From Branchiostoma floridae (taxonomy: Eukaryota > Chordata > Leptocardii > Amphioxiformes > Branchiostomatidae), in NCBI RefSeq assembly GCF_000003815.2, contig NW_023365820.1, forward strand, positions 220,451 to 284,450: DNA of 64,000 nt, given 5' to 3'. Positions 38,212 to 63,645 of the stretch are shown piece by piece (the first letter of the stretch is position 1; every line of letters starts with the position of its first letter). The notes under the pieces are model-generated. The model ran no database searches. It saw nothing but the letters and a program-made list of their open reading frames with translations, and was not told the DNA's origin. The position numbers and the translations under genes are program-made.

Positions 38212-38839
38212 ACGCATGATGGGATCGTATGTTGAAAGAAAAAAAAAAATTGCAGACAAACACATTTCCAAAGCGGGCGTTAACATTTTTTTTCAGGTCA
38301 AATAATACCGTAACATTTATCTATTTGTTATATTTTGTGAAAGGATTGTAGCACAGAAAATTACATCTGCATGGTAGTTTCTAGTGTTTTATATGAAGGT
38401 TAATGTATTATAGGGCTGGGTGTAGAGCACGACACTTGGGAATCTATGCATGTGCGTCATTTGACGTCATTTCCGCCATATCGGACGGTATTGCTTGATC
38501 CAATTACCAGCCAAAATAGTCCCTAGGGGATTTGAATTATACTCATTTGGACGTTCTGTTGACGCACGCATATTGTACAATAATAACATACCGCAGTTTC
38601 GTTGATGTAAAAATTATCCATTTTTAACGGCCACTTTAAATGAATTGAGCTAGCATCTCAATACCTTATATTTTTATTTTGTCACTTCTCCCAGTACTAA
38701 GTTTTCATTCCGTTGTGTCATTCTCTTTAACCCCGAGTGCACGTTTTGGTACTCAGAAATTTTACATCATTTTTTGAAAAGCAAAGCTGACTCTGTTGGA
38801 GTAAAATTGTGAGCACGACATTTTCGTCTGCCAAGTGAG

Positions 38840-39435: not shown

Positions 39436-40084
39436 CCCAGCATTGCTCCCGACTAACCTCTCGAAAAAGGTCGGCGCTTGGTCAATTCTATTCTATCCTC
39501 AGTTCTCTTAGCTATTAAGCATTTAAGAAAATAAACGCCGATTTTGATTTCTCAAACGTAGCCATGATTCAACGCTATTCTAACTTCAGTTCTCTCATCT
39601 GATCGCATTTAAGAAGAATATTTACTTTACCGAGTTTGTTTCACAAGCTTAAGGTAGCCTGGATTCAACCCCATTCTAACTTCAGTCTTCTTAGACGAGT
39701 GTATTAAAGAAATCTAGGGCCTTACTTGTTTGATTTCTCGAAAGTGATATCAGACTGGAACAGGCGACTTAGAATACTATTTGGACACCTCACCGACCAA
39801 ATCCCAACCAAAAAGGAACCTGGATACGTCTCTTAACCATCGTCTTAAGAAAATTGAGAGGCAAAGGTCAGCTATGTAGACAAGATTTTAAGCTTGGATT
39901 TTTTTAAGGTTCTTAGTGGCAAATGTCTGCACATACAAGTAGGCATTGGCAGACTACGTCCGTGTGTGTTTTTTGGCACACTATTGGCAGAGTCTTGAGC
40001 GTCACTCCGCCGTCAGGGAAATCTGTATAAATGTCTATCTCGATGGCACAACGCCAGGGACATATCAGATTTAATTTATTTAAT
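39436..40084. other. No gene; degenerate repeat units
   Basis: Three diverged stretches near 39484, 39563 and 39671 share TTCTA.C.TCAGTTCTCTTA-like and GCATTTAAGAA.A motifs, a roughly 90-base decayed tandem repeat. Confidence 0.4.
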
Positions 40085-40149
40085 CCGGACCCTCTAGTTT
40101 CTGAGACCGACACTCTACCAGTTACGCCATACACGACTGAAAAGTTGTT

Positions 40150-40447
40150 TAAGCTAAGGGCACAACCCGTCGTATGTGCAAATACGTGCTGTCTAGGTGC
40201 CAAAACCTGGGCAATCTTTTGGGATCCGTAAGTGGTAAGTACCGCCTCCGTACGAACTCGTAGAGAATCCTACGGATTTTGGAGCAAACCGTAGAACTTT
40301 GCGCAAAGCTCTGTGTGCCCTCGGGCTACGAATTCGCTCCCCATACGTGCCAGTGCGCGCGACGCGCGTGCCCTGCACAGCCTTGACGTGGCCTCCCCAA
40401 TAACGTACGGAAATATTACACGCACGGTGGGTTGTGCCCTTAGCTTT
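40150..40447. mobile_element. GC-rich MITE, about 300 bases, AAGCTAAGGGCACAACCC ends
   Basis: Left AAGCTAAGGGCACAACCCGT and right GGTGGGTTGTGCCCTTAGCT are inverted. The interior is unusually CpG-rich (GCGCGCGACGCGCGTGCCC near 40346). A tRNA-like SINE head fragment (CTCTACCAGTTACGCCATAC) abuts at 40085-40138 on the minus strand. Confidence 0.8.
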
Positions 40448-40559
40448 AAGGAAGGTTAGGGAAGTTTTGGAGATCGGCGTGTCTCTTAATATTGGACTGA
40501 CCGGGATCGGACATGTATGCCCAACATCGTACAAGAATCTGGTCGATATTCATGGTAAT

Positions 40560-42660: not shown

Positions 42661-43230
42661 TACCGGCTACAAACTGTGTAATGACACTGTGAGTTAGATA
42701 TAGGCATACACATATGCATATACCGACACATCAGCGTTTCCAATGCAATAAAAAAAATATATATAGTCTTTCATTGTCATGTCGACCAGAGCTTCTATGG
42801 AGCTTTTGCGGCTGAAATTTCTTGTCAGCATCAATAGGGCGGTTGGTCGGAGTTTATAGGCCCCTGCTATAGGTTGTCAGGCGACAGTGTGAGTTGTGAT
42901 TATGTCTTGAAAATTAACCAATACATTAATGATTTCATCGTAATAAAAACAGTATGCAATTTTACATTATGACGACGAAAGCTTCGGTAGAGCTTATGCG
43001 GCTGCAATTGTTTGTCGGCTGTTGTCGATACAAGCTGTCGGCACAATTTAGTGTCCTAAAGTTAGGAACAAGCGTGACATGTCTGCAATTCTTTTGTGTT
43101 TTAAATGGTGGTTATACCGGCTGAGCAATTCAGCTTCAGACAAGATCCTTTATTATTCCGTGGTCAAAGGCTTTTGTTGTAGGTCTTGTCTAGCTGTATG
43201 TCAAAAGTAAGTAAAGGTGAAGAGCCTGTA

Positions 43231-43339
43231 GATATGCCAAAAAGCAGTTACTCAAGCAACTGGAAAAGATTTAGAAAGGTCATACGTTTCAGATAGCATC
43301 CACTTTCCAGTTGCTTGAGTAACTGCTTTTTGGTATATC
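43231..43339. repeat. Long palindrome, 36-base arms
   Basis: The left arm 43231-43266 (GATATGCCAAAAAGCAGTTA...TGGAAA) and right arm 43304-43339 are reverse complements with one mismatch, around a 37-base loop. The right arm runs straight into a partial copy of the 13027-13268 unit, which also holds GCTTGAGTAACTGCT. Confidence 0.9.
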
Positions 43340-43977
43340 GTATTACCTGGATGTCTAATATTTATCGCCGAATAGAGTCTGTAGACTTATTTAGTATCGC
43401 ATTGGCATTAGAAATTACCGGGAAAGTCAACGCATGGCCATTTTTATATGACTTCAATTTCATTTTGATGGAAGACATAATCTTCTTACCGTCAAAGTTC
43501 ATGGGTTGGATTCAATCTAGTTAAGACAATTATATGGCTTGGATGTAAAACGCTGCTGGCAAAGATGTCAATGTACGAAGCAATAGGGTCATTGACATCA
43601 CTGGGAAAACGTACGGACATGGGCAGTATAATACTACATTTTATTGTTTATCTTTTATTGTTTCATTGACTCCTTTAGCTATCGCACTGACAGTTACATG
43701 TGACAGATACTCTTGTATGAGACACAAAATTGCACAGAAAATATTGACAGTGGGCATAACATACATAAACATATATAGGCATATATAGGCATCCTACAGT
43801 TACAAGTACTAACAATCGTCATACAAAACATTATAAAAACGCATGAGAATGTTCATCTTCCTATGAAAAGGAGTCGTTCGTTGGGTTCTTGTTTTTCTTT
43901 ATGTTTACTATAAACGAATGCAAGGTAGATGAGTCAAGGAGATGCTTGACATACATATTTAGTAGTTGAGTAGATAT

Positions 43978-44165
43978 TAATGAGACCTCGAAATGATTAG
44001 ATTTTGTGTCCCTAAGCGATTTGTTGATGATACTATGTTTATCTTCCTAGTATGTGGACGAAACAAGATCACTCTTTGGGATCTTAATGCACATTTTGAT
44101 GAGACATTGAAATGATTAGATTTTGTGTCCCAAGGCGTCTTGTTGATGATTGCGCTGCTTGTATT
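43978..44165 (+). repeat. Two-copy tandem duplication, about 119-base period
   Basis: AAATGATTAGATTTTGTGTC at 43991 and 44110, followed by TTGTTGATGAT in both. Confidence 0.85.
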
Positions 44166-44309
44166 TGATAACATACATTTACTTACAGCATCAATAATCA
44201 ATATATATATCAATAATCATTAAACTCAATTTACCCTACGTGATCTCTATAGTTAGAATCTGCTTGTTTGTTAGATTACATAGGCGTCATTTAGTTAGGG
44301 ATAATTGTA

Positions 44310-44405
44310 ACAACAAATTGTTCGGAGGACGGTAATATAACGTTCGAATTGCGAAGCTGACGTGTTACACCGAATGACCGTTATACCGGTTGGCCAATTC
44401 AAATT
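44310..44405 (+). mobile_element. Partial interspersed-element tail
   Basis: GGTAATATAACG, GCGAAGCTGACGTGTTACAC and CGAATGACCGTTATACCGG match the 26520-26675 element in order but with more divergence. Confidence 0.55.
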
Positions 44406-44779
44406 CAAATACCAGTTTTTATCCATAATCAAGGTTCTTTGTTGCAGGTTTGTGTTGTAGACTTTCTTTAATTGTATGTCTAAACTAGGTATATACATGT
44501 AGGTAGTAGAGCACTTTATGGATTTGCCTTGGCATTGAAAGTTGCTGTTAAATTCACATGGTAACTTGTTGCATGTAATATGTAGATCCAGCTCTGTCGA
44601 CTAATAATGTGTACTTGTCAGTCGACAGATACCCCTTGCAAGTAATTCTAAATGGCCCGTGCTAGGTAGATATCCTTTGTTATGTGAAGTCTTGCTGGAG
44701 CCGAACCATTGATGTTAAGATTACTTGCTTGGTGTGATATCTATTCTTTGGTCGTAAAACGGTCCAAGTATATCATCTT

Positions 44780-45284
44780 TTAGGCCACAGCAATTAAATT
44801 TTATGGATTACATCCTATGCACAGTGAAATAATAAGGAGATAGCGCAAAAAAACGAGATGGCTAAATTTTTTTTGCAATAAACACTAGAAACGTCGTAAC
44901 ATGATACTTACTATAGTGACAAAACGTGGCATCACAACTGACAAAGCATTCATTCCTGTATTGAAGAAGTGAACTAGTCTAAGAGTATTAAAAGTGATAC
45001 TAGTGTGGTATACTGGTATCACTTGCCAAGCTGGCAACTACATTCATGGCTTCCATATTGATGGCACTTTAACAACTATCCAACTATTTTCATTTCAGCA
45101 GCTGCTATAGTCAAGGCTACCTCCCTACTGTCACTTCTACAAGTATCATTATTAGACTACAACACAACATGTTTGTCTATTTTGGTCTATCTGACCATCC
45201 CCGAAGAGGAATTTTTTTCTGAAATCAGGCGGAAATTATTGAGCGCGCTGATGTCATCCATAAAATTTCCTTGTTGTGACCTTA
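44780..45284 (+). mobile_element. MITE family C, copy 2 (about 505 bases)
   Basis: Starts TTAGGCCACAGCAATTAAAT and ends ATTTCCTTGTTGTGACCTTA. Subterminal GATGTCATCCATAAAATTT. Interior blocks AAAGCATTCATTCCTGTATT, GATACTAGTGTGGTATACTG and GGCTTCCATATTGATG match 26927-27416 in the same orientation. Confidence 0.85.
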
Positions 45285-45834
45285 CACAATAGTAAAATTT
45301 ACGCCCGTAGCTCTGATTATTTGTATGTCGCATAAAAACACGTTTGTCACTTTGATCTTTTTAATTCTAAAAGTGCTTGGAGCTAGTGCGTCATCACTTT
45401 TTGACAAAATTTATAGATGAATATCATGTTTGGATATCTTTTTGATGCTTATAAATTATAGCTTTTCGGTGCCTGAAATATTGATCTTTTTTTTTTTTGG
45501 TGACGAAATACGAAATACTTTAACCTCACCCATAATCTAAAGGTGTGTAAAGCAATGATAATTTAAGCGTAGGCTTAAGCCAGACAGGGTTTTGATGGTT
45601 GAAAGATTATATTCAAAACATCAAAGATTACTTAAAGGCGCCAGAACTGCTAAGATATTGATGCACTAGCTGAACGCTGACAGGATTTGGGTCGTTAAAA
45701 ATCTAAATTCAAATCTAAGCCTTAGAAACTGTTGAGGATAAGTTACTTGAGCTAAACGCTTACAAGAAGTAGGTGATTGAAAATAAGATTGAAATTGAAC
45801 GTGGGATCCTTTGACGTTCACTGTATCAAGAAAA

Positions 45835-46100
45835 AAAGTCGAACCCAACAAGTTACAGTTTAGAGCTAATTTTATACTTAAGTAGACATACTCTCTACTA
45901 TTCTACAATATTTGCTTGTTTGTCCCATGTTAACTGCAATTAGTTAGCTGTATCTTCTTCAGCACTATAAAGAAAAGAACTCAAACCCAACAAGTCACAG
46001 TTAAGAGTTAACATTAAGAATAGAGTAGAAATATTCTAAACTGTTCTACACTATCTCTTTGATAATTTGCATATGTGCCCTTTCGTGTTACCTGCAATTA
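45835..46100 (+). repeat. Two-copy tandem duplication, about 142-base period
   Basis: ACCCAACAAGT.ACAGTT at 45843 and 45986, followed by TCTAC..T.TTCTA and a GTTA.CTGCAATTA block in both copies. Confidence 0.7.
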
Positions 46101-46439
46101 AAATTTGAAAAAAAAATTATTACTGATAATGTTTAAAACCACTAATAACGTTTAATCACCACCAATACTACTACTACTTCTTAAGTCGTAATCTTAAAGC
46201 GTAGGAAATACTAAAGATTTAATGCATGAACTCAACACTGACAAGTCTATCGTTAAATATCATACACTCAGGTCGTTATCTTTTATAGTCTGGGGAACGA
46301 TTTACTTTGACAATCATTTTATTACTGCGGGATTTCAGGAACTCATTTCATGGAGGTACGCTAGCAATTATGTGTATCTAACGAGTTTATACCTGCGCGA
46401 TTGCAGCGTATGTGTAGTATATCAAGTTAAGATACGGCT

Positions 46440-46690
46440 GTCGGATAAAGCGCTAGTTCACTTTTATCCGAGGGATAACCTTTATTCGCTATACTTAAAA
46501 GCAGCATATTCTTGGATATCAAGTCGATGGACGGTAGTTGTAAATTGCAATATATCCAAAATTGTGCTATTTGAAACCACCGTCCCTTGTCTTTATAAAT
46601 ATTAATAATGAATCATATTCAGAAATATCATTTTGAAAAACGGATATAGGTTACCCTGCGGATAAAAGTGAACTAGCGTTAACGACAGAC
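46440..46690. mobile_element. Inverted-repeat element, CTAGTTCACTTTTATCC arms
   Basis: 46450-46490 (CGCTAGTTCACTTTTATCCG, then AGGGATAACCT) and 46636-46683 (its complement, GGATAAAAGTGAACTAGCG) face each other. A 127-codon frame (46222-46605) overlaps the left arm; it has no recognisable motif, so it is not called as a gene. Confidence 0.55.
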
Positions 46691-47179
46691 GGCATCTGGG
46701 AATGAAGACTATAAAGAATTCTATGTGAATCAAACAGCGAATAATTTAGAAATTTCATATCCAAACTAGAAAAGTTTATTTTATAAACTCTTAAATTGAT
46801 CTGTTACTTATATTAAACATTTTGGTCTTTTTTTCTGTGGCTTTTTTGGTCTAGGTTTGAAATACTGCTAATGCTAATGCTACGACCTATTTCCAAAAAC
46901 CTGGCTATTATATGGTGCAATATTTCAAGAAATGGCAAAGTTTGTACCCCCCCCCCCCCAAAAAAAATCCTTCAGCTTCTTGTACCTTAGATAACTTATT
47001 TCCAATAATCTTACAATTACATGATGCTATCTTACAAGTGGCAAAGTTTGTTAAACCAACAAACATTCCTTCACCTATCTTGAAATAGTTAAACTGTGAT
47101 ATCACTCACGAAAATTGGACTCCCCCGAACTTTCGACTGCACAGCATCAGTCTTTGTCAAGGAGAAAACCACCAATCCA

Positions 47180-47357
47180 CTGCTGTTGTGACGTCACGTT
47201 AAGCATATAGAACACGTGACTCAGTGAGCAGTGGATCATAGATCACAGTAAGTCTATGGCGCCCACCGTCTCTATTCAGGGATGGTTGTAAAGCTATTGG
47301 TGGATGGTTGTCTAAGCGTGTTCTATCTGCATAACGTGACGTCACGACAGCAATCCA
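47180..47357. mobile_element. Inverted-repeat element with TGACGTCA-containing arms
   Basis: The left TGTGACGTCACGTTAAGCAT then ATAGAACACG and the right CGTGTTCTATCTGCATAACG then TGACGTCAC are reverse complements with few mismatches, about 100 bases apart. Each arm contains a full CRE-type palindrome. Confidence 0.65.
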
Positions 47358-47485
47358 TTTTTTTGTGTTGGGAAATACTGTTCAACTATTTCACCAACGC
47401 AGATGAACTTTCAACTTAATTCATTCACCTACGTGTACTTTAGATAACTTATTTGGTACAGAGCCGAAGGCCCGAAGATGTTACG

Positions 47486-47802
47486 NNNNNNNNNNNNNNN
47501 NNNNNNNNNNNNNNNNNNNNNNNNNNNNNNNNNNNNNNNNNNNNNNNNNNNNNNNNNNNNNNNNNNNNNNNNNNNNNNNNNNNNNNNNNNNNNNNNNNNN
47601 NNNNNNNNNNNNNNNNNNNNNNNNNNNNNNNNNNNNNNNNNNNNNNNNNNNNNNNNNNNNNNNNNNNNNNNNNNNNNNNNNNNNNNNNNNNNNNNNNNNN
47701 NNNNNNNNNNNNNNNNNNNNNNNNNNNNNNNNNNNNNNNNNNNNNNNNNNNNNNNNNNNNNNNNNNNNNNNNNNNNNNNNNNNNNNNNNNNNNNNNNNNN
47801 NN
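47486..47802. other. Assembly gap (317 N)
   Basis: Run of N; no annotation possible. Confidence 1.
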
Positions 47803-48784
47803 GAAAGAAAAAAATGCACCAACAAGTTTGAATAGACGTACTTATTACTTTTCTATTTCTGCTTGAGGAAACTCAATCTCGCTTTGCCATGACCTCGCAG
47901 ACCCTGCGCAATTCAGTTAACTGATTTGATTGGCCATCGTCGCCAACCGTAATCCATGTAATGACAAATCGTAAACAAGCTCCTCTACCCTCCCACGAAA
48001 GTATTAACGTCTAGTCCTGTCATGCACGGAGACTTTGTTTGAGGTATCGCACGACAATTTGCGAACTAATCTTCGCGCCATTTTTATGGACTTACGAGGG
48101 ATTTCACACGCCGAGACGTCGCCTCGATCAAAGCTTCTTAAGTGCTTTTCCTATTGAGGTGCTGTCGTCTGAAAGCCCTTTACGTCTTAAGCGGAATTGG
48201 GTTATTGATAAGTCTGTGAGATAAGAAAGATGAGTCGGACTAACCCAAATCGCATCGTTCTTGAGCACACGTGTGAAGCTATGTACATGACAGCAGTCTA
48301 CAACATATGAATATATTCTAGGGACAAAAAACACACGACAATACAAGCTTATAATGTACTACTGCCTTTTTTAATGTAAATATTCCAATTCATTAAGTAT
48401 CCATGTTCGATGGCATCCATGTGAGAACTGCTAACTTGGATGCCATCTGAATTGCCTAGTTGCAATTTTCATATTGAATAGTAGCGTTAACTTTATAGTA
48501 GAGTGCGTGTATTTCCATTTTCTTCCATGCCCGCCATCTTGGATTTTGTCAATCCTGAAAATTTCAAAGCATGCCGGGATACTTTATTATGATACTTTGG
48601 GACTATCTAGTACTGTTTTTTCTTTTTTTTTGGGGGGGGGGGTGTTTCTTAGATTAATTGGCGAGTTTTTTACGAGATTCTTTAGTAGGTACCGCTTATA
48701 CAAACGCATAGCAAATATTAACGCACAAGTTGGGCAATAAGCGACATATGTAAACTTTACAATTAAAACTGTTATTGTTGTTTC

Positions 48785-49010
48785 CTACAAACATACACGC
48801 ACACAAAAAACACATGCATGCACAAAAAGCACAAATGTATACATTATATAGAAGCACATAAACACAAGCACGCATACAAATGCACATGCACAAATGAATG
48901 CACGTACACGGGCGCACATGCGTACATGTATATACAATGTCATGTACAAACCACACAAATACACGAATACATACACACAGAAACACATACACATATTTTC
49001 ATTCGTCTGA
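48785..49010 (+). repeat. CA/ATGCAC-rich microsatellite
   Basis: Irregular ACACAC, GCACATGC and TACACA tract. The long frames across it are low-complexity shadows. Confidence 0.9.
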
Positions 49011-49772
49011 ACTGCTTTGCAAGGAACAAGCTCTGCTTCGAAATACATGACATCAAGTAATATACTTCAGCAGCAGTTTGACAAAGCTTGTTTAAATAAC
49101 CTGTGGCTATCCGTACATATTAACTGTCAAACGTAGCCGGGGAACAATAAATAATTTTTCTATGCGTTTGTGAAATGTCTAGAAGTTGTTAATTTATTGT
49201 ATTATTTTCTACAACAATATTGTGCTCACCTTCTATCTTTTGTATTTTCTACTGACAGGCATTTTGCAGAAAATGGAAAAAAATGAAATGTGATGCCCTT
49301 TTCTAGAACCTTTGACCTAACTACCCTGATCAGTGTCCCCAAATTACCTGTCGGGAGGAGGGGGTATTTGACCTCCATTTTGACCTTCACTTTCTGCTAC
49401 TCTACACAAACAGACAAACAGACATGCCAAAAACAATAAATGTACAATGAATTTCAAATACACATGAATGTTGCAACTGTAACAAGAGTTTTATGAAGAA
49501 ATTTAATTGATGATGCCCATTCACGAATCACAATGTGTTACGTTACGTGACCTACGTGTTGTTATCGCTAACATGTGTGTGTTTTACAAATTGTCTTCTT
49601 AGCACCACATCCTTTCTAGCTATATGTACTTCTCTCTGATTGACATTTTTCTTTATTGTCTTCGTCTTTCCCACTGTCCTGACGTAAGGACTGTCCTTGA
49701 AAACAAAAGGTCACACATTTTCCTCTCGTCCCCAGGCTCTAACAGACTGTCCCGGAAGATCCTGAGAACAAG

Positions 49773-52700
49773 ATGACGAATCGCGCTGCCCTTTCTGTGG
49801 CTGTGTTCCTGGCCTCTGTCGGCATTATCGGCGCCATTAGAGGTACTGTGTTCATTTTGTCTGTCTCTGGTACATCCTTAGGTGCCCATTAGAGTGGGAA
49901 AATTGTTGCTATTTACGGACAAGAATAGAAGCAAAGACTTAAATTGTCAGGAGTTATTGCAAAAAGAAAGGAAATAAATGTGCGCTAGGTCTTCAACCCC
50001 TGCAACTAACTTTTTTTAAAGCAGAGGTTAAGTACATAGTGCAATAGAAGTATAATTTGTATTTTGATGAAGCATTCATATATTTCTAGTTTATTTATGA
50101 TATGACAAGTGTCTTTTAGTGTCAAACGCCTGTATTGTGACCTCATTGTGTTTTCTATCGATATCTTAAAGTTTGTTTTAGTCTCATGCTTATTTTTATT
50201 ATGTATATCTTTGATTTATATATACTTACTGCCTTAATTTTCCTAACTTATTCATATGCTACTTACGTCGATTTATCAAATTTGATAAAAGTTGGCCAAC
50301 TTACAGGCGTTCTACCTTCAGACCAGTTTTGCACACTTTTGGTATTCTTTCGATTTTTTATTTCTAATAATGATTTGTGAAAGATTAAATAAACCAAAAA
50401 AAAATAAGAACGACTTTTCACAATCTAAATCTAATTATCAGAGTTTTGCATGTGACTTTGCATGGACAACATAGTTTGAGAATGGTAATAAATGCAGCAT
50501 TCTATACTTGAGACGCCTTCAGCGCTACACCCCCCCCAATCCAATTTTCATTTTTCAAGAATAAGAATTGATAGCTAGAGCTAATATCCATTAAACAGGA
50601 GGTTGGCGGTCAAATTGCCTGTGCAGAATAATGGTCTTATCGTCCCATGCATATTCCTCGTGCTCCTACGGTACTGCACTTAATATCAATATCATGAAGG
50701 TCAAGCAAAGGACGCTCGCATTTGCCTTATCCTGGCGTCAAGCTACGTTTTTCTACAGGTTTGAGATTTCAGCTTCGTCTTTCATCGTAAATAGATTTGT
50801 GTAGCTTTCCCCAAACTAAAGCAAATTAAAGAACTGATGCGGTAATGGTCTGAAACAATATTGCATTTAGCATTAGGGACCAATAAGAGAATAGAGCGTA
50901 AGATATAGCTTTAGAAAAATGGCTCTTCGAAGAGGACCAAGGTGAAGATTTATCGTAATGTCAGTTAGCCATCACTATCAACTTAGGGGTAGTATAATTA
51001 TGAAGGTAATTCAAAGTTCAGTATTTTGTTGAGATACTATACAGATTATGTAAAGGAGTCAAAAGATATGGTATTAGCAGAGGAGTATTTTTTGATGGAA
51101 GTAAGGTAGTAAGGAATATGATGACTGCTAGACATCAGTACCAATTGGATTGTCCGTTGCACTTTCCGATGATTAGACTATCTAGTACGTAAGTCGTACT
51201 ATTACTCTTAGGATACCAATAAGGTAATGGGGGCATAAGATATGACTTTAGAAAAAAAATTGCCTTTTCGACGTGGGCTAAAGTAAAAATAATTCTATTC
51301 TTAATACCACCTAGCCATTTACTAACAACTTATGGAAATATGATTATAAATGCAAATCATAGTATAGTATTTTGTTAGGATACGGATAAGTTAAAGGGAT
51401 CAAAAGATATGGTATTAGCAGAATGGTACCTTTGATTGGGAGCAAGGTAATAAGGGATATGATGCCCGTTAGCCATTTTAGTACCAATTGGATTGTCCGT
51501 TGCATTTTTGGATGATTAGACTATCTAGTATATAAGTCGTATTTCAATATCACTCTTAGGACAACAATGAGGTAATGGGGACATAAGATATGGCTTTTGA
51601 AAAACGGGATTTTCGCCGGGGATGGGGTGGCAAAAGTAAAAGTCTTTATTTTATGTAATATCAACTTGCCATTACTAACAACGTATGGGCATTGTGATTA
51701 TGATCACAGTCAATATTTTGTTCGGATACAAATTTGTTAAAGGGGGTTAAAAGGCATTGCATTAGCAAAAAAGTCTATCTGGCTGGAAGCATGGTGATAA
51801 GGAATATGATGACTGTAGCCCTCAGTACCAATTGGAGTGTCCATTGCATTTTGTATGATTAGTACGTAAGGGGTATTTCAATATCACTCTTAGGATACCA
51901 ATAAGATAATGGGGACATAAGATATGGCCATAGAAAAGACTGGCTTTAGAATAAGGGGTCAAAATGTATGGTATTACTGATAGAGCCTTCACACTGAAAC
52001 TGAATTAGCAGGAATCAAGCAGAACAAGCCGGAATGAAGTATTTGCAATATTCGTGCCACATTCTGGGCCATTCCGAGTGGGAATTCCAAATGGACCTTA
52101 TATCCCCTTCACACGAGAAGGAATGAGCCAGAATGCAGTCAGAATGAAAAAAGTAATTTCTATTCCTGGGAATTCGTACTGTATTCGAGAAATTCTTACT
52201 GCATTCCAGATATTCTTTCGGCCACATTCGGACAGGATTCGAAGGTGTGGCTTGCCGTTTCGATTCTCCATCGAATGAGATAAGAATGTTTCGAATAATG
52301 TTGGAATGCCGCAAATCTTGTTATACTGCAGGTAGAATAGTTAGAACACACTTAGAATCCACTTCGAATGTCATTCGATATTTCTCCACTTCCAATGCAC
52401 CTCGACAGTTTTTAATATGTCTAAAACTTTCGGGTCAGCCAAAAGAACGGGGACGAATAGCTGGAATGCAGTAAGAATGTCTTGAACACACTACGAATTG
52501 CCCGGAATATGTCAGGAATAGAAAATAATTTTCATTCCGACGGCATTCCGGCTGATTCTTGCTCTCGCGTGAAGGGGGCTTGAAGAGTATCCCTGGTTGG
52601 ACGCAAAATAAAATAAAAAATGCAATGCCTGCTAGCCATCAATACCAAATGGATTTTTCATTGTTATTTGGAACAATTTATGTTATAACGTAAATCTTGC

Positions 52701-55700
52701 TCTATAAAATACGTTTGTGTAATGGGTTAAAAATATATGACAATGGTACAACCTGTTCTGAGGTTGGGACCAAAGAAAGATTTTTGTTAATGCCATTATT
52801 ACCTACAATTGGGCTGTAAAATCACATTATGAACCCAAGTCTTTTTCAGTAAAACTATTAGGATAAATGCTACGAAATAGGGTCAAAAGATAGGGCATTG
52901 CGGAAAGTGGCTTTCTAGTTGGGACCAGATTCCATCATTTGGTTTTCCACCGTAGAAAATGAAAATGTATCAGATTATGAACGTAAACCATGTTTCAATA
53001 TCTCTATTAGAATAAAGACCAGGTAATTGTAATAGAAAGATATGACATTAGGAAAATTGACTTCCTTCTTAAAGTCGACGTACAAAATACAATAATGGCT
53101 AACGATTCGCCGTCCACTTTGTGGCTGTAAGGTTGTGTACGTAAATTACTTTTTTTTAATATTACCTTTTGCATCAACTTACGGATTTCCTCAATGTAGG
53201 AAACAAGTCAATATCATTCCAATTCACCCTCTCTGGTATTGCAGTCGGACCTGCACTTCAGTTTGGTCTATTTAGAATTCTCTTTCTTCAGGCACAATGT
53301 CTTTCATTTGAACCTATTTGACCGCATGGGTTCCTTTGAGCCATAGCAGGGTTTACAGCTATTTGAACCCACCCTCTGGAAACAAAAGAAAACGTTTTAC
53401 ATTACCACCAAGGTTATTGATGGCACACTCAACGCGTAATTGCCAAAGATGGAGCATTTTCCTTCAAGTCTTCTTCTTAAAAAGGTTCTCTTACACGCAT
53501 GAAATATTGAAGGACACGCTCGTAGAATTTTCTTAGCTTGACCTTGGAATTTAGCTTGTTCAACGAGGGTAAATTGTGGCAAATGTTCGAAGACCAATTC
53601 TTAAGCTTGGTAATGCCCTTTGGTCAGAAATCGGCAGGCATTGAATCACCTCCGTTTCTGATATAACGTCCTTGTGTAGGGTTAGTAAAATCCTCAAGAC
53701 GTGTTTTCACATACATATTGGTTTAAGTCGTGTACAAGAATATCTATAGAATTTTTCTATATACGTCAAAGGGTTGTAGTACGTTTTTCGAATCGCAAAG
53801 TGCAGAAAATCCCTGTTTTTGTATGATGCTATAAAAAGTGTTTCCATGTATTAGTTTATTATTTTTGTTTTATTTGTTGTCAATTTTAGTATACATATTT
53901 AGTATATACAAATCGACTGATTGTCGAAAGTCAATAATACAATAGTTTACTAAAAAAATCAAACAAAGGCAAATATTAGCAAATGCTATTTTCTGATTAA
54001 TTTACCTGATAATCTAGAGAAGCGCATAATGCAAACAAACTTATGTTTTTTTCCTTAAATACAATTTTACATGAATGAATGATTTGCATACTTCGATATA
54101 GTTACCAGTTATTGTTAAAAGTTCTTCAGAATTTTTTTGCTAATAATGAGGTCCATCCGATTTTGAATTCTTGCCTATTTCTTTTGTAACCTCCTGGAAA
54201 CCTTAAAGTAATTTCCCAATAACTGATGTACTGTACAGAAACTAAAAGACAAGGAAAATGAATGACCATGTCGGTCAGTATCGAAGTAGCGCCTACAAAT
54301 AGATACATCCGGTCGTTAGGGGTCAAAAACCGCACCATTAGTCCATTCCCTGCCCTTTAAGAGAGTTGTGTTTTGGCCTTTTCTTCATTTTCTCGCCTGA
54401 GAAGTCGATTTGTTTTTGTCAAATCCAATGGCTGTTGTAGAATCATGACATTTAATGTAGAGAGTGTATATATATTTACAAAATGATAACCACATGCTCA
54501 TGACCGCCTCATTGGTTCAACATTTTAAAGGTGGTATGATCTCACTGCACTTGCGTCACGCTTGCGTCACTGTGGGGTTCGAAAGATACTCAACGAATTT
54601 CAGAGATAAAGAACGATTCTTTTTTACTTTTTGTGTATTTCCTCGTCTTCTAAGTCATACTTATTACGCAACATCTGAATGATAAAAGATTGTCCAAAAT
54701 TACAGAACAGTGACGCAGTGAGCGAACTCCACAGTGACGCAAGCTTGACGCACGTGCAGTGAGATACCACCTTTACACTAAAGATGGACTGTTTTATCGA
54801 TGTCTGAACTTGGCATGTCGCCACTTTTCTGATTTTAGAGTTGATAGATAACGTTGCCAGGCATATCAGGTGACAAAATCAATGTTGCGAATCAGTAAAA
54901 CGTAAAGCAGTGTCGTTTTTATAGATATCATCAAGTACAAAGAAATGAAAAATTTCTTCGTCTTCAATGTTCCATAAGGCTGATTTTCTTATATTCTAAT
55001 GACAAATTTCAAAACAGAAAACAGGAAATAGATATAAACGGGAAACACTAGTACTAGTACTGCTGCTATACTTCAGTTCTATAATTACCAACAAGGGAAA
55101 TCTATCTGAAACGCAATATTTTCCCATTTCTTTGTTCTTTTATGTATAACTGATATTCTGCTGTTACTCTATATCTTTGTCTTCGTTAAATCAATAGTTT
55201 TTTTTTGGTCACATATCTAGTGCAAACTCCATGGTAATAATTCATGAAAGACAAAAAAGCATGAAGTAAAAAATGGAAAGAAAAATACCGGTTTTGGTGC
55301 CGACTGTACCTTTATTCTGGCACAATTCAGGCGTACAGATTTGCAAAAGAAGTTCGGACGACAACCGTCATGATATGTCGTTTCAAGTTTCTTTCCCAAG
55401 AACAGAGTGTCTAAGTATGGCGAGTATATCAAACCCAGGACCTATAAGTGCTAAGCCACATTGACTGTTACGCCACACCGACGCCAATATGGAAAGAAAG
55501 AGAACAACATACTTCTCCTATATACCTCTCCTATACAAAATGATGCATTTTATTCATAGTCACGTTTCCCCTAGATACATATTCTTCTCTCGTTTTTCTA
55601 AACTTATTACTGTTAACAAGGGACCCTCACGTCCCTACACGTACGTCCAGACAGTCTGAACACCAGATCACTGATGGGGATTTAATGCTGATCTGGCGGG

Positions 55701-58700
55701 GAGTCCGACGTATTGATTGGGTTTAACGGTCCCGTCTGGCCTGGCCGAATAAATGACCCCCTAGTATGAGAGGGATTGATGGATATGGGATGATCACTAC
55801 GGGCGTTTGGGCAGCAGGCCCATTTCTATACGTCTTCTTTGGGAATTTCAGATGAAAAGGCTTGGGTTGTACCGGGGTTAAAGAAGGGGGAGGGGGGCAA
55901 GAAGGAGGGTGATCGTTTTGCTGAGGCAAAACAGTACCTGTTTGAAAATGTCAATTAAAGTTTGAGTTCTTCGTCGTAAATGGTTCGATTAACAAACATA
56001 TGATGCTTTTTTTAGATTGTAATAATTGAAAAGTCAACGATGCACCGGGGTTAAGCAAGCTTAGAGGGGGTAGGAGAGAGAGCCATCGCTTTGGTGACTT
56101 TTCAAAAGCGTTTGATGGCACAGTTTTGAATTATTTTGACTGTATGTTGAAATAGCACGTGTGTACCGGGGTTAAGTAAGGTGAGGGGGAAGAGGGAGTA
56201 GGGCAGTCTTTTTGGTTTAAGCAAATCCGTCAGTTTTTAAGATATCGATTTTTTAGCGTTTGATATCACTATACTGTATACTTTAAGTTGCTGTCACATA
56301 CATCCTACTTTGGCAAGTGTGATGAAACAGTGTGTACTATGGTCAAGGGAGGGAAGGCTGGTAAGAGGGAGGACAATCGTTTTGGTTGAGGCAAATCGGT
56401 ACTTTTCGGGTAAGAAACATCGGCTTTTCTAAAGATTTGATATGACTTTCATGCATAATCTATCCACACATGTGCTTATCTGATATCTATTCAGGACCAA
56501 AACTTTTTTTTCATTGAACACTGACCATTCTAACGCAAACTAAAAATATCTTAAAACAGCTGACACATTTGCCGACTAATAGTGGGGCTGATGGACGGTT
56601 GAATGGATGGATTCGGACTCTAATTTTTCTAAAGTACTAACAACCACCGATATAAATATCCTACGTATGCACATGGAATTTATAGATCATTGTTTACTTC
56701 TGTAAAATAACGCTGAAAACAAAATCCTTTACACTCAAATTTCCAAAATCATCTTGTCTCCGTACGCAAATGGATATGTGATTTACTGTCAATTAACCGA
56801 TCACGAGGGAGACAAAGTAGTGCAATTAGACTACAAAATACTGCGGTAGCAAAGTAATGTGGCCTTGGGGGTGGGTGGAAAATGAATTATATTCGCTAAC
56901 TTCGTGGGCAATCGTCCAAACAACCAGTTTGGGTCACCATGGTGGATCGTTAAAACGAAGTTGTGTAACTTGGTCGTCGGCAATTTCCGGAGAGATTTGA
57001 ATGTTCCCATAATCCCTTGGGAATAACGGTAGCTTTTGTGTGATAGAGCTAGCGGTGTGCACAACTGTCAAATAACATTAGAACCAATCACAAATTGCAT
57101 TACAGAAGGAGAAATCGTTACAGGACATGTACTTGCATAGAATAGATTATATACTAGTGCAAGCTTAAGGCTAACGTTAGGATTTTGCTGTTTACTATTT
57201 TTGAAAATATATCATCAGTTAACGTTTTATATTTGTAATTTGAGTAGAATTTTACTTTGCTTTTTTGTATTATCTCATCTTTCTTTTTGTTTATTTATTT
57301 ATTCATTTTGTGCTGGTGGGGCACTACAGAAGATCAGGCAACATTTGTTTTGTGGGTTTTCTGTTTTTCTGAGTGTTTGACCTTTTCCGCCGCCTATCTA
57401 TTTTTTATTCGTCCCTGGATTGCTCCTTGTATGAAATGACATGCATGTTTGATCTTTTTACTAACAATTGATAATATATAAGGAATGTCGAAGTCGGTAA
57501 GGTGTTGCGTATTGATATGTGTTTTCTTCTTGTACCCAGGTCTCCCAGCATGCCGTTCGACAGACGAATGTGTGCAGGGAATGAGGTGCAAATACCACAG
57601 TACCTGCGGATACTCTTTCTGTATGGTAAGTTTTACTTGTCCACACTGAAATGTTAACAAATGCCGTAACAGGTACAAAGTCCTAGTTTAAAACAGTTAT
57701 TGTTATAGTATAAGGCTCGCGCAAGGGGGCGTTGCAGCAAGAGTGCTTACTACACACGTGACTAACTCTGTGTCCCCCTCACCCCTATTCGTAACTAGGA
57801 CAGATTTGGCTATTCTCCAAGCAGATATAGTAGTAGTCGGAAAAATTACACGAGCGCTCTTCCTAGGCGCAGAAAATTTAAGAAAATTAGAAATTCTTGC
57901 CTTTCTTGAAAAAAAAATGCGAATCAGCTCTGCTAGAAGGTCTGCAAATGAAAATCTGCAGTTTTTTTTTCAGACATTGATGCAGGAGGATACAGGAATC
58001 AGTCACATGCAGGGTAATTTTCTTGACTCAGAGCCAAAAGGTCAGTCAATTGTCAAGGAGGTAACTGGACCAGATCCCTCAGTTATGCTTGGCAAACGGA
58101 CAGTAGGAGCAAATCGAGAAACGCCATGAAGCAGTGAAATCGAAACGAATACTAATCAGCAGATGTTGTGGAGCGGAAAATTGCAACGTTTTCTCACTTC
58201 CACAAATGGTACAAACTTCGACCTTAACACATCTGCTTGAAGATGAAAAAACTACATCTGATAATCCGAATATTATTACCAAATGCCATGCTTCTTGCAA
58301 CGGGCTGGGCGGGTGCCCTGCTATACAAGACTAACTCTACAAGGCCGTAGGTTTACTGGTATTTCTCTGATAACCTGTATTCGACACGGGCACTGATTTC
58401 ATGCAGGCTTGTCTCATCCCTCATTTGAAAGGAAATCCGGTTAAATCTCAGTTCCACCCTTTTGTCGGCCATGTACGTAATTGCGGATATCCATTCGACA
58501 TTCGGACATATCAGCGCACAAGGTATAAGCCCCTAATTCCATTCCCGTATTTCTCTCCAAGGATTTCGGTAATTGCAGGTGATCGCTGGGTTAGTACTGT
58601 AAAACCCAGAATTGTAGCATAGGGTAAAAAAAGTCATAATATTGCATTGGAAAAAGTGGCGTTGAGTATAATAACGGTAGGGTGTTTAGCTCAACGCTCA

Positions 58701-61700
58701 GATTTTTTTGAGTTCGAGTCCACTAATATATTCTATGACGTTGTGCGGAATTCTCTTTGGAAAAGTACTTGGTAGAACTTTTTTTACTTTATTCAGGTAA
58801 ATTCAGTACCTAGCTTCGGTTAGGGACGTCCTTCGGATAGGACGTTAAATGGAGGTCCCGTGTTAGAAGACACCCAAGTCTCATTTCAAGCACGTAAAAG
58901 AACCCATCACACTTATCGAAAAGAGCAGAGGTCTTTTCCGGTGTAGGTGGATCAAATAAATTTGTCCAGATATGCAAATTGTACTCTTCAGTACAAACCT
59001 GGTGTGTTACACCATGATGCGTTTTACTGCATATGCAAAACAAGCAAAATTATCCAATATCTATTTTCAATCCCTTCAAAGGACTGATGTTACAATAGTT
59101 GTTATATAATATTTCCTTGTCGTTAATTATACAACTTTTACTTTTCTAGGATTTGTGTATTATTTTCCTATTTCAATTATTTCAGTGGAATTGTGTTTAG
59201 CACTTGTTAGGAGGAGGTCTTGTATTAGCCTATTTGGCTTCTCTCTTTCTCCCGGATGGTATTTCTATATCATCTTTACTTTACTTTCTGTGCTTTGTAT
59301 ACGTGTAAGTAGATATAATCAAATCAAAATCAACGATCATAGCAAATATGAAGTATTAACAACCAATCTTCCATGTTTTGCCAGTATTTAATATCAATAT
59401 TACCCGGGCCCATATAAGAGATTATGTGGTATTTCCGTAGACCGTATCGCAGCTATTTTTTTACGTGTAAATGAATACAATCAAATCAAAATCAACGATC
59501 ATAGCTAATATGAAGGATTCACCACCAATATTGTTCATTTATTAGCGGTATTTAATATCAATATTACCTGGGCCCATGTAGTGGTATTTATGTGGTATTT
59601 CCGTAGCCCAAACCGCAGCTGTTTTTTTTACGAGTAAATGAATATAATCAAATCAAAATCAACGACCATAGCTAATATGAAAGATTAATACCACCAATGT
59701 TTTATGAATTGTCGGTCTTTAATATCAATTATACCCGAGCTCATACAGGAGATTATGTGGTATTTCCGTAGCCCGTGTCGCAGCTGTTTAAAAAATTTGT
59801 TTTTACGTGTAAGTAAATATAATCAAATCAAAATGAACGATCATATCTAATATGAAGGATTTACCACCAATTTTTCCTGTTTTGCCGGTCTTTAATATCA
59901 ATATTACCCGGGCCCATATAGGAGATTATGTGATATTTCCGTAGCCCGTATCGCAGCTGTCTTTTTGGGACCACTGGGCGCCCCGTCACATCCATTCCAA
60001 TCAAGCCTGACGTGGGATTTATAAGTTTTAAGCACACGGGGACAGCCCTCATTTGTCACCAGATGAAACTATCGCAGCTCGACTTCTTTATCTGCATTCC
60101 AGATGGCGTTTGTACACATTGTGACGTCGTTTTCAGTCGTTTGTTCTAATCGTTTTATCTTATGGTTTCTCGCGAACTAATATTTGCTCAAAGATAAGAG
60201 CAAATGTTTGTAATGTCGTTTTTTTATGCTTTTGAACCGAAACAATCATTAATTATGGACGGTTTGTGTTTATTACGTGAGACTTTCGTTGTTGCATCGT
60301 TGGAACGCATTGGTAGGGTGATTGGGCCAAACCCTAGTGTTTTCTGGTTTAAATCCCCCGATATGCCCGTTGAGTCCTTGGGAAATCACTTTACACGACT
60401 TTCCTCACGTCACTAAGTTAAAAGTAAGTACCTATCTGTCCCGCATAATACACAATTTTACATACATAGTAAAAAATACATAATAGTGAAAGCTGCTACA
60501 TGATCCCATTCCGTTCATTTTGGTCGTTTCCGTTACTCTAAGAGTCTCTTAAAGGAAGCCAGAGTTGGGGATGTGTGTATTTCCGGTGGTAGACTGATCC
60601 GGATGGTGGGTCCACAGTATAGGCGATGGCTTTTGTAAAGGTTTTTCGCTGGGGTTTTGGGACAGCAAGTTGATTGCTTGTGCTTTGCCTGGTTGTTCTT
60701 GTGCTTTGGTCTCGGCAGTAGACAAACATCTGTCGCATTTAGGTTGAGAGTTTCTTTCCCAATAGCATAGGATCGGTAGCATGATTAGATCTAAATCGTC
60801 GATCTATGGCTTATTGGCCATTCACACTGCAGTAACGACACACGTCTTCACAGGAGCCGACTTAAATGGCTGGAATTGATACCGAATTAAAAGGCTATAA
60901 GATATTTACGCAAAAGACTTGAACCGTATCATGATGGAAAACTTGGTAAAGAAACTTGTCGGTTTAGTCATTACGTATGCCCATTGGGGAACGGATTGAG
61001 TGACGTTGACGAAGCGTTCAATTTCGAACCCGCTATCAGTTAGTCTACAGCTTTCCGATAAAGCACATTGCTTACATACTCAATGAGTTTTTGCGCACTT
61101 GGCAGTTCTTCAGCTATGGTGTGATGTAAAGATATAACGTGTAGAATAATCTTTTCCGCTTGGTATGATTCTAAACTTTGAGATTCGATGACAGACAATG
61201 GTGACAACAGGTCCTATGGATTTCGTCAGGTATACTGACCTATTATGACCTTATGATCACGTGACTCTCGTTCATGGTTACAGGTAAACTTTGGGTTGAT
61301 GCGTTCAAAATTCGTCTTTACCCAGAGATATCGTAGAGTGGGATATGTTATCAATTTGTATACATAGGAGCATTTTCTTTTTAGTTTCAAAGAACACGTG
61401 CAGATAGATGTGCAAAAGCTGGGTGTGGTGGGTGGTTAAGTGTAATATAAACCAGCTGCTGCCGCGCTGCGTGCCTGCGAAGCCTGTGTTTTACGCAGAA
61501 TGGCCTGTATTTCTCAGTACGATATGACTCATATGTATTGAAAAATTCACATTGAAAAGTTTTTTCCCCAAGGGAACAACATCATGCACTCAGTGGCGTG
61601 TCAGAGGTTCGAACCCAGGAACTCTGGGTCCTAGACCAAACACCAATGGAACGCCAAAAAATAATACTGTTTTCTTTTTTTTTTAAATCTTCTTACTATA

Positions 61701-63645
61701 TGTTTAAAAACATACAACTTAACCACTAAAAATGATAAATTTTCTTTTTCTGCAGGACACCAGCTGGTGTGAGTATGACTACCTGAGTGTAGCGGTTGCA
61801 TGCGGTGCCTGTGTAACAAACTCTGAAAATGCATTTGTTTTTTCTGCAGGACACCAGTTGGTGCGAGTATGACTACCAGTGTAGCGGTTGCATGCGGTGC
61901 CTGTGTAACAAACTCTGAAAATGCATTTGTTTTTTCTCAAGGACAACAGTTGGTGTGAGTATGACTATCAGTGTAGCGGTTGCATGCGGTGCCTGTGTAA
62001 CAAACTCTGAAAATGCATTTGTTTTTTCTGCAGGACACCAGTTGGTGTGAGTATGACTATCAGTGTAGCGGTTGCATGCGGTGCCTGTGTAACCAATGCG
62101 TGCAGCCGACACCCTGCAGGTCGGACCGAGACTGTGACAGGCCTGACCAGTGTATCTACCACATGGAGGGTGGCTACTATTGCGATAGACTGGTAAGTAC
62201 CTGAGAATAAGCACGTTGGCCGGGTTCCAAGTGCGCATGTGCATCGACATAAATTGTGGGTAATGATGGAGGCCCCTGAGAAATAAAGAAAGTAGGTCTT
62301 GACATTTTTTTTTTTTTTTTTTTTTTTGCAAATCAAGACAAGACAATAAGTTAGGGCCTTTAGGCTTACATTTGATCCCTTCCACTACATTGACCACAAA
62401 CATGGCGACGGCTATACTTAAAACCTATGACTTGTAACGTTAACTTTAAATGCCTAATACGGTCGTTTTTGTTCTCACACAGAAGGAAATTAACACCATC
62501 GATATGACACCGGTCAAGCCGCACGAACAGCCGGTCGGGCCGGCCCCGGTGGTACGCAGTGCAGTGAGTTGGCGGGAACAGATGTTCCGTCCACCGCCCT
62601 GCCTCAGTACGGACGACTGCCCCACGGGACAGAAGTGTGTTTACCACAGCGACTACAAATTCTCCTTCTGTAGGGTAGGTGTTTTTGGCAACGCCTCAGG
62701 AGCGAGGCTTTAATTTTTTTTGAAAACGTTGAATAGTTTCATCAGTCACGTATGAATACAGTAACTACAAATTTTCTTCCAACAGTGACAGTTTTTAAAG
62801 GCAAGGTACGTGTGTCCAAATTTGTGATGTCTTACAGAACATCTTGTTCACAGAGAGTGACCTAGTCTCGATCTCGCGAGAGAGCACTAGACTAACAGGC
62901 TTGCGTAGATCATCTGCCCCCCCCCCCTGAAGTTTCTTTACAACATTCTAAATAGATGTTCAGCTAGCAAACATGGCTAGTATTATTATGTGATACTTTC
63001 ACAGAAAAATTGGACACGAAAGTTCCAAATTTTTCCCTTAACCGTTAGTATGTATCTGCTTATTTATTATTTTGTTGTTGTTCATTGTTTTAGGGTCCAC
63101 TGTACTGCCAACGTGACAGTGACTGCGGCAGGGGGAGGCTGTGCTTGTACCACGACTGTAGAAAACCGCCCCCTTGCTACGGCGACAATTACTGCATCCT
63201 TCCACTCAGATGCTTGTATCACCAGGACGCCGGGTACTACTGTGACGTCAGCGTAAGTAACAATTTCTGAGACATGGCATGAATAGAGTCGAAGTTGATA
63301 AGGCCCAAGAAAATGTCAAAAGGCGTTGTTGAATGGGAAGTTGTAGCTTTTGTAACTTGTTTTATGCTTTTTGCACAGTATACAGTGTTGTAGCCTTTTT
63401 CAACTGCATACAGTTGGTTACCTTTATGATATTAGCATAATTTACATGCTTTTCTGTATCGTTGCTAGGGCTTCATTTGTTTTAAAGCGTGTAGTTTTTT
63501 TTTTCATACGTTCGACTAACTTTTCGACTACAATATACTACACAGATATAGTGATGCATTGATCATTTCATTATGCCTAGTACATACATTATCTTTCCTA
63601 AATTGTTTCGTGCTTCTAATTCTCCAGATATCTGGAAATAGTTAA
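49773..63645 (+). CDS. Secreted cysteine-rich protein with duplicated exon pair, 6 coding exons
   Basis: Exons 49773-49842, 57540-57625, 62034-62192, 62483-62674, 63094-63252 and 63628-63645 have GT/AG borders and compatible phases. They sum to 684 bases, 227 residues plus TAA. Residues 1-23 (MTNRAALSVAVFLASVGIIG...) form a signal peptide, so secretion is expected. The rest is 27 cysteines in C-x5-C-x5-C modules, often followed by YH and closed by [YF]-x-C. Exon 3 (53-105) and exon 5 (170-222) are both 159 bases and share C-x5-C-x5-C-x4-C-x5-C-x5-C-x5-C-x9-C. Exon 3 has two extra cysteines (C66, C71). Exon 2 (C28-C51) and exon 4 (C145-C168) share STD[ED]C, YHS and SFC. Exon 4 adds a proline-rich linker (about 112-144). 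An acceptor at 49735 (CCCCAG) suggests an upstream 5' UTR exon. The modules faintly resemble EB or Dickkopf/colipase-type folds, but I recognise no family. Structure is fairly sure; function is unknown. Confidence 0.8.
50875..51985 (+). repeat. Tandem array, about 340-base period, three-plus units
   Basis: ACCAATAAG..(G)TAATGG landmarks at about 50879, 51215, 51563 and 51897, with ATAAGATATGGC/ATGAC, CAAAAGATATGGTATTAGCA and CAGTACCAATTGGATTGTCC in successive units. Decayed units continue at 52600-53080 beyond an inserted MITE. It lies in intron 1 of the cysteine-rich gene. Confidence 0.9.
52114..52578. mobile_element. MITE rich in GGAAT/ATTCC, about 465 bases
   Basis: The left CCCCTTCACACGAGAAGGAA and right TTCTTGCTCTCGCGTGAAGG then GGG are inverted. 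Inner blocks TTTCTATTCCTG and CAGGAATAGAAA also pair. It splits the 340-base array. Dozens of GAAT(G/T)C and ATTCC motifs lie throughout. A partial relative abuts on the left (51985-52110). Confidence 0.75.
53080..54526. other. Intron 1, nothing further recognised
   Basis: AT-rich intronic sequence without an exon that fits the phases of the flanking coding exons, and without a repeat copy seen elsewhere in the window. Confidence 0.35.
54527..54774 (+). mobile_element. MITE family D, copy 2
   Basis: Starts AAAGGTGGTATGATCTCACT and ends GCAGTGAGATACCACCTTT. Its interior follows 25274-25518 throughout (AACGAATTTCAGAGATAAAG, CTAAGTCATACTTATTACGC). GTGACGC motifs replace the CAGTGCCGC motifs of copy 1. 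Confidence 0.85.
55385..55485 (-). mobile_element. SINE head fragment
   Basis: The minus strand has GGTGTGGCGTAACAGTCAAT, then CTGGGTTTGATATAC (B-box) and a CTTGGGAAAGAAACTTG link, as in the other SINE copies. Confidence 0.5.
55865..56400 (+). repeat. Degenerate tandem array around ACCGGGGTTAAG
   Basis: GTACCGGGGTTAA at 55871, 56044 and 56165 and a decayed unit at 56335. Each is followed by a G/A-rich stretch (AGGGGGAGGG-type) and a GGC..TCGTTTTGGTT..GGCAAAT block. Spacing is 121-173 bases. Confidence 0.75.
56401..57539. other. Intron 1 3' portion, nothing recognised
   Basis: No repeat or exon was identified before the acceptor at 57539 (TTGTACCCAG). Confidence 0.35.
57626..58664. other. 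Intron 2 5' portion; unassigned open frame
   Basis: A frame of about 128 codons (57743-58129) reads ILQADIVVVGKITRALFLG... with a complete stop, but opens without an ATG and has no splice support. I recognise no family. It may be a decayed mobile-element fragment or chance. Confidence 0.2.
58665..59045 (+). mobile_element. Full-length SINE, tail type 2
   Basis: tRNA-like head (GGTGTTTAGCTCAACGCTCA then GAGTTCGAGTCC), middle domain (GTACCTAGCTTCGGTTAGGG, GACGTCCTTCGGATAGGACG, TTAAATGGAGGTCCCGTGTT), a GCACGTAAAAGAACCCATCA box, then the tail AAACCTGGTGTGTTACACCA and an A-rich CAAAACAAGCAAA end. It shares its tail with 12310-12545 and its middle domain with 36358-36740. Confidence 0.8.
59305..59965 (+). 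repeat. Tandem array, 162-175 base period, four units
   Basis: AATCAAATCAAAAT(C/G)AACGA at 59317, 59479, 59646 and 59821. Each unit has TTTAATATCAAT.TTACCCG, GATTATGTGGTATTTCCGTA, a CGCAGCT.TTTTTT stretch and TACG.GTAA.T. It lies in intron 2 of the cysteine-rich gene. Confidence 0.95.
60305..60440 (+). mobile_element. SINE head fragment
   Basis: GCATTGGTAGGGTGATTGGG, a TGGTTTAAATCCC B-box, and TTGGGAAATCACTTTACACG then CTTTCCTCACGTCAC. It is the same head/link as 36358-36740, truncated before the middle domain. Confidence 0.6.
60441..61394. other. Intron 2, nothing recognised
   Basis: No exon, RNA or repeat copy identified. Overlapping minus-strand frames at 60538-60782 are unsupported. Confidence 0.35.
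61395..61525 (+). mobile_element. Interspersed element tail copy
   Basis: GCAGATAGATGTGCAAAAGC, TAATATAAACCAGCTGCTGC and CGTGCCTGCGAAGCCTGTGT match 26520-26675; the final ATACAG run is lost. Confidence 0.65.
61555..61662 (-). mobile_element. SINE head fragment
   Basis: The minus strand has GGCGTTCCATTGGTGTTTGG, a GGGTTCGAACC B-box and a CCTTGGGGAAAAAAC link. It ends about 90 bases before the duplicated splice acceptors. Confidence 0.55.
61756..62033 (+). repeat. Three tandem copies of exon 3 start plus its splice acceptor
   Basis: Units 61756-61849 (94), 61850-61941 (92) and 61942-62033 (92) precede the real exon 3 at 62034. Each contains the first about 69 exon bases (encoding DTSWCEYDYQCSGCMRCLCN) followed by AACTCTGAAAATGCATTTG, T-rich tract and AG. 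The unit 3 acceptor is changed (TCTCAAG), and unit 1 has a two-base gain (TACCTGAGTG) that shifts its frame. Units 2 and 3 reach a stop right after CLCNKL, so only splicing to 62034 gives a full protein. Confidence 0.95.

Follow-up and report, generated by a model that had tools for sequence, protein, structure and literature searches.

A four-unit minisatellite across a 3′ splice site of Branchiostoma floridae, very likely a largely neutral amphioxus 'mirage'

In a 64,000-nucleotide stretch of the Branchiostoma floridae genome (the window; C262:220451-284450), we characterized a real array of four head-to-tail units that lies over the 3′ splice site of a predicted exon in a cysteine-rich gene. 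The array is very likely an amphioxus 'mirage': a largely neutral minisatellite whose unit extends across the intron-exon boundary, with the acceptor at 62033/62034 being the one in use. The extra copies probably leave splicing undisturbed. The locus is a new addition to a type of amphioxus repeat that has already been described, and it contributes one clear case, with defined units and edges, to the small published set of amphioxus splice-boundary minisatellites.

Four head-to-tail copies at this exon's acceptor had been proposed in the first-pass annotation, and the repeat searches support them. Tandem Repeats Finder returned one array (61745-62093; period 92, 3.8 copies, 95% matches, score 631), a repeat search of the window gave unit spacings of 94, 92 and 92, and the self-identity at a shift of 92 across 61786-62093 is 208/216 (0.963). 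The acceptor positions named in that annotation, 61755, 61849, 61941 and 62033, are indeed the intron's final bases at the four sites, and all four end in AG. Its definition of the unit, as a polypyrimidine tract and AG followed by 69 coding bases, had to be corrected. Based on the predicted gene model, each unit of 92-94 bp contains about 32-36 bases of the intron's 3′ end, including the AG, and about 60 coding bases of the exon's start; the splice signal is therefore copied within a unit that spans the boundary. Only these ~60 coding bases are shared with the real exon, and the bases that follow them (AAACTCTGA...), including the nine that had been counted as coding, already belong to the intronic portion of the next unit.

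The array's edges are located at about 61720 and 62095 (Table 1). The hexamer TAACCA is present in register at both outer edges, in the intron at 61720 and in the exon at 62090, and each inner junction (61814, 61906 and 61998) has TAACAA instead. When compared to the real exon, the coding copy of decoy 2 has two synonymous changes (TGC/TGT and TAC/TAT) and that of decoy 3 has one change, ACC to AAC. As had been observed earlier, decoy 1 is shifted by two extra bases and one decoy acceptor, that of decoy 3, is altered to CAAG.

Table 1. Positions of the array, its units and the predicted exons of the host gene within the window
Feature	Position	Strand	Description
Whole mirage array	61720..62095	+	Four units, bounded by TAACCA in the intron (61720) and TAACCA in the exon (62090-62095)
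Unit 1 (decoy 1)	61720..61813	+	Diverged intronic edge; acceptor TGCAG ends at 61755; 2-base insert in the coding copy
Unit 2 (decoy 2)	61814..61905	+	Acceptor TGCAG ends at 61849; stop in frame, TGA at 61916-61918, which falls among the intronic bases of unit 3
Unit 3 (decoy 3)	61906..61997	+	Weaker acceptor CAAG ends at 61941; stop in frame, TGA at 62008-62010, which falls among the intronic bases of unit 4
Unit 4 (presumed functional)	61998..62095	+	Intron part 61998-62033, acceptor TGCAG; then the real exon's start to TAACCA
Predicted upstream exon	57540..57625	+	Ends in ..ACRSTDECVQGMRCKYHSTCGYSFCM, phase 0; donor GTAAGT at 57626
Predicted real exon	62034..62192	+	159 bases, encoding DTSWCEYDYQCSGCMRCLCNQC...GGYYCDRL; begins and ends in phase 0; donor GTAAGT at 62193
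Predicted next exon	62483..62674	+	192 bases, cysteine-rich module
Predicted following exon	63094..63252	+	159 bases, two cysteine-rich modules
Probable last coding exon	63628..63645	+	ISGNS, stop TAA; read from sequence

The host gene model was predicted from the sequence alone. Downstream of the array, the frame DTSWCEYDYQCSGCMRCLCNQCVQ... remains open to the GTAAGT donor at 62193, and the predicted protein is a series of cysteine-rich modules. Three Pfam families match this protein, all under their cut-offs (DUF7107 with 19.2 bits versus 24.6, Dickkopf_N with 16.1 versus 25 and ACI44 with 10.1 versus 27), and by the curated Dickkopf_N cut-off the host gene does not qualify as encoding a Dickkopf-type cysteine-rich protein. 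There were no solved structures matching the protein at E up to 1. At the same threshold, the genome contained no paralogue or single-copy relative by which changes could be polarised, as all six matches, from seven initial candidates, fell within the host gene itself. One simple scan of 40,001-57,540 for a first exon with a signal peptide (phase-1 donor score >6.5, hydrophobic start) found no candidate, and the name 'exon 3' for the exon at the array is therefore unproven.

We compared acceptor strengths by scoring 233 AG sites from 57701 to 62040 with vertebrate-type weights. Decoy 1, decoy 2 and the real site each score 9.46 and decoy 3, with its CAAG, scores 5.76, placing them third, second, first and eighth, respectively, while the host gene's other predicted acceptors score between 4.71 and 8.86. 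Decoys 2 and 3 had been judged roughly equal to the real site in intactness, which consequently holds for the acceptor of decoy 2 and not for the weaker acceptor of decoy 3. A further, unrelated AG of this intron, at 58796, ties at 9.46, showing that the acceptor score is blunt, and the array's best match to the branch-site consensus lies in unit 1 (CTTAAC). Sequence on its own therefore does not single out 62033 as the winning acceptor. The array offers a naturally occurring test of the spliceosome's choice among near-equal acceptors.

Two considerations suggest that splicing would mostly take place at 62033/62034: it is the sole acceptor from which the reading frame continues into the gene's remaining exons, and by exon definition, in which a strong downstream donor favours the nearest acceptor, it would be favoured by the strong donor at 62193. 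We then read the consequences of splicing to the other three sites from the phase-0 junction. Decoys 2 and 3 terminate after 22 residues, in agreement with the first-pass annotation, and decoy 1, whose frame is shifted, terminates after 38 at 61870-61872, within unit 2's copy of the coding bases. Decoys 2 and 3 reach their stop in the context AAC AAA CTC TGA, which belongs to the intronic portion of the next unit, and this TGA is located within CTGAA, the sole branch-site-like match of the following acceptor in a scan with the branch consensus. The exon's length would be 159 bases from the real acceptor, 251 from decoy 3, 343 from decoy 2 and 437 from decoy 1, and the stops of the three decoys lie 182 (decoy 3), 274 (decoy 2) and 320 bases (decoy 1) upstream of the exon's end at 62192. 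Nonsense-mediated decay usually acts on stops that are about 50 bases or more upstream of a junction, and the decoy stops are therefore far enough away by this rule. Decoy-spliced transcripts would be removed by such decay, and the array would thereby be tolerated as near-neutral intron sequence. This leads to an idea that can be tested on other mirages: the intron-derived part of the unit supplies a stop, which would render any mis-splicing into a decoy unproductive.

The first-pass annotation had also described the anatomy as a set of competing acceptors whose decoys lead to early stops, which is what the acceptor scores and the three decoys' frames indicate. The same anatomy could serve regulation, as that annotation had proposed, if the decoys were used at a controlled rate, with their early stops triggering nonsense-mediated decay and the copy number tuning expression. 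Unproductive splicing through the decoys is possible, as decoys 1 and 2 score like the real acceptor and all three are predicted to end early. The distances from their stops to the exon's end, the presence of more predicted introns downstream and the stop that decoys 2 and 3 inherit from the intronic bases of the next unit all agree with a regulatory function, but a frame-breaking duplication would yield the identical picture without any selection. Moreover, decoys 1 and 3 are damaged by the 2-base insert and by CAAG, and globin and Adh3 mRNAs are reported to be regularly spliced despite their mirages (PMC3087553). We consider regulatory unproductive splicing to be very unlikely.

It is distinctly unlikely that the copy number acts as a variable attenuator, whereby each added unit provides a strong competing acceptor with a built-in stop, given that the best branch-site match of the next unit contains the TGA. 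If this were true, more units would result in less protein, and an unstable repeat could tune how much the gene yields across a population or even from one somatic cell to another. Decoy use could instead produce short secreted cysteine-rich isoforms, as truncated peptides ending in DTSWCEYDYQCSGCMRCLCNKL. Both decoys 2 and 3 are open for long enough to encode such a peptide (22 residues), and decoy 2 encodes exactly DTSWCEYDYQCSGCMRCLCNKL with its five cysteines, but the transcripts' stop would be well upstream of three predicted junctions and the real exon's next cysteine (NQC) would be lost, and we consider such isoforms exceedingly improbable.

We also scored the GT sites within the units, which reach 5.85 in unit 1 and 5.33 in units 1, 3 and 4. 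These scores are lower than those of three predicted real donors (10.52, 10.69 and 7.51) and about equal to that of the weakest (63253, 5.86), and judged on score there may be a cryptic donor inside the array. The duplicated units could be the substrate from which a new internal exon or intron arises, according to a model proposed for the globin mirages (PMC3087553), and the array shares with intron gain by tandem genomic duplication (e.g. PMC4974935) the use of a tandem duplication as a source of splice signals. However, the GT sites are positioned only 11-13 bases past the acceptors, which would create very short exons. We give almost no weight to an early stage of intron or exon gain.

The mirage reading that we favour is supported by how the units differ from one another. 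Inner units 2, 3 and 4 are identical at 87-90 of 92 positions (95-98%). When aligned without gaps and with its 2-base insert removed, unit 1 is identical to units 2 and 4 at 77 of 92 positions and to unit 3 at 74 of 92, and 13 of its 15 differences from unit 4 fall within the 21 outermost bases of its intron part. This left edge is nonetheless still like the inner junctions, as its alignment score was equalled by only 17 of 5000 shuffled sequences and, among 3977 24-mers of the intron, by 4. The array had been proposed to be young, which agrees with the homogenised inner units but not with the diverged intronic edge of unit 1; a recent origin is therefore not required for the array in its entirety. 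The simplest reading of these differences is an older duplication whose inner units were kept alike by turnover while the edge drifted. The copies would have multiplied and stayed alike through slippage or unequal exchange, from which the outer edge would have escaped.

The founding duplication, we infer, used the short TAACCA match to link the exon to the intron, either by replication slippage or by microhomology-mediated repair. The occurrence of TAACCA at both outer edges suggests such seeding by microhomology and is modest evidence rather than proof, as 16 of 3983 intron positions have a 6-base edge match in exact register, and 98 of 3983 have one if the register may be off by up to 3 bases. 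Seeding of the duplication by a short match between intron and exon is an idea that is testable on other mirages. The inner intronic segment has a 22-base pattern with three exact copies in the array and one place elsewhere in the genome with two mismatches, the same number as found for a reversed-pattern control (one, at two mismatches or fewer); a templated insertion from elsewhere is consequently unsupported as its source. A synonymous bias in the coding copies was set aside as well, as the changes (TGC/TGT, TAC/TAT and AGC/AGT synonymous, ACC/AAC not) are too few to argue from.

The term 'mirage' has been applied to tandem repeats that cross intron-exon boundaries in amphioxus genes, with those of the globins BflGb6 and BflGb9 described and Adh3 and other loci cited as further examples (PMC3087553). 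The BflGb6 mirage comprises 150-160 bp units from the 3′ end of intron B12.2 and the start of exon 2, present as six and three units in two haplotypes (PMC3087553). As described there, it resembles the window's array in its tandem joining of intron 3′ end and exon 5′ end, its AG acceptors within the copies, its homogenised inner units and its exclusion of the edges; it differs in its longer unit, its globin host gene and the two unit numbers shown for its haplotypes (PMC3087553). The Adh3 repeats are likewise tandem repeats across exon-intron boundaries in Branchiostoma, with a length instability that is also somatic, but their unit is 10-72 bp (Canestro et al. 2002 as cited in PMC3087553 and PMC3902484).

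PGBD5 has 60- and 108-bp repeats at its splice sites, where splicing across the repeats is predicted, in the account given in PMC3902484 without RNA support; both 5′ and 3′ splice sites are involved there, whereas only the 3′ splice site is repeated here. On the question of function, the Adh3 data and globin RT-PCR are presented as suggesting that regular splicing is undisturbed, while the copies are granted a possible role as cryptic sites (PMC3087553), and the Adh and troponin C mirages are cited as generating no aberrant mRNAs (PMC3902484). The titles and abstract openings listed in a literature search named neither the host gene nor the window's array nor a genome-wide mirage survey, which is no proof that none is in print.

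We then considered whether allelic or sequencing copies had been stitched in tandem during assembly. There are precedents for caution: the BflGb6 array was aberrantly assembled in the draft genome and rebuilt from traces by the globin paper's authors (PMC3087553), and the PGBD5 repeat numbers differ between two genomic sequence versions (PMC3902484). The array is located on a 602-kb contig, outside the large contigs, and stitched alleles that had diverged could yield copies that differ. However, the units differ mutually (the 2-base insert, CAAG, ACC/AAC and TAC/TAT), unlike a plain duplication of one stretch, their spacing is regular and the stitching of two alleles would not yield four units; in addition, the PGBD5 sequence was confirmed by Sanger and later Illumina data (PMC3902484). 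An assembly artefact is highly improbable. A 461-base query for the array had one match in the 513-Mb, 431-contig genome, and the assembly therefore offers no second haplotype for a comparison of copy number.

To estimate the frequency of such arrays in the same genome, we applied Tandem Repeats Finder to 79 exon loci, which were 9 globin matches, 30 p450 loci (from 118 matches listed, with 92 of 1138 candidates scored) and the regions around the next 40 p450 matches. One of the 79 loci has a splice-boundary array, a globin locus (L010; 1 of 9 in a family chosen for its published mirage), and none was found by this program in the 70 p450 loci. Two other flagged loci were set aside: one has two copies of a 58-bp unit inside an exon (L033), and the other has a GAAT-type repeat just 3′ of a donor (L055). 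On this rough, small sample, mirages are uncommon per exon; the figure is rough as part of the loci are exons that share a gene or come from close relatives, and as overlap was judged against the edges of profile matches with 30 bases of slack.

The globin locus, on contig C18, has a 158-bp unit in 4.2 copies over the 3′ end of an intron and the start of the LLRDYPEIQQKW exon (LLRDYPEIQQKWPQLKHL). When read through, the exon's first base completes a codon and three decoys precede the real exon. The unit size, the side of the boundary and the intron phase fit those described for BflGb6, and the three decoys are like the three units of one published haplotype (PMC3087553). This agreement indicates an origin of the genome in B. 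floridae or a very close relative. A search for the GFP family as a cephalochordate marker had 0 matches, and its control had none either, so that it carries no weight. The assembly thus preserves a published kind of mirage at this second locus.

A minisatellite with a 19-bp unit (12.9 copies) starts at most 10 bases 3′ of a probable donor, GTAGGT, at window position 4411, which does not look to be part of the repeat. A frame upstream of the one carrying this donor has GDSL-lipase similarity under the Pfam cut-off (E 2.1e-5), and the gene may encode an isoamyl-acetate-hydrolysing esterase.

Elsewhere in the genome, two related p450 exons on one contig (L055 and L062, G000:C9) each have a GAAT-type simple repeat, starting in both cases no more than about 20 bases 3′ of the likely donor. 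Another p450 exon (L033, G000:C13) contains a perfect 58-bp tandem duplication at 1447–1563 that breaks the reading frame; either the gene is disrupted, or the duplication is polymorphic, or the assembly is wrong at this point.

Besides the mirage array, the four-unit array across the 3′ splice site of the cysteine-rich gene, the window holds seven more arrays with periods of 163–387 bp, together with a frame that matches the HTH domain of Mos1-type transposases.

Coordinates of features in the window
Feature	Position	Strand	Remark
GDSL-lipase-like frame	2488–2979		
Frame with probable donor	4254–4562		
19-bp minisatellite	4418–4663		
Array	22320–22902		
Frame with HTH domain of Mos1 transposases	31164–31493	minus	PF17906, E 1.3e-8
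Array	34137–34894		
Array	35538–36164		
Array	38835–39435		
Array	40746–41851		
Array	51051–51937		
Array	59300–59966		within the predicted 4.4-kb intron that also holds the mirage array
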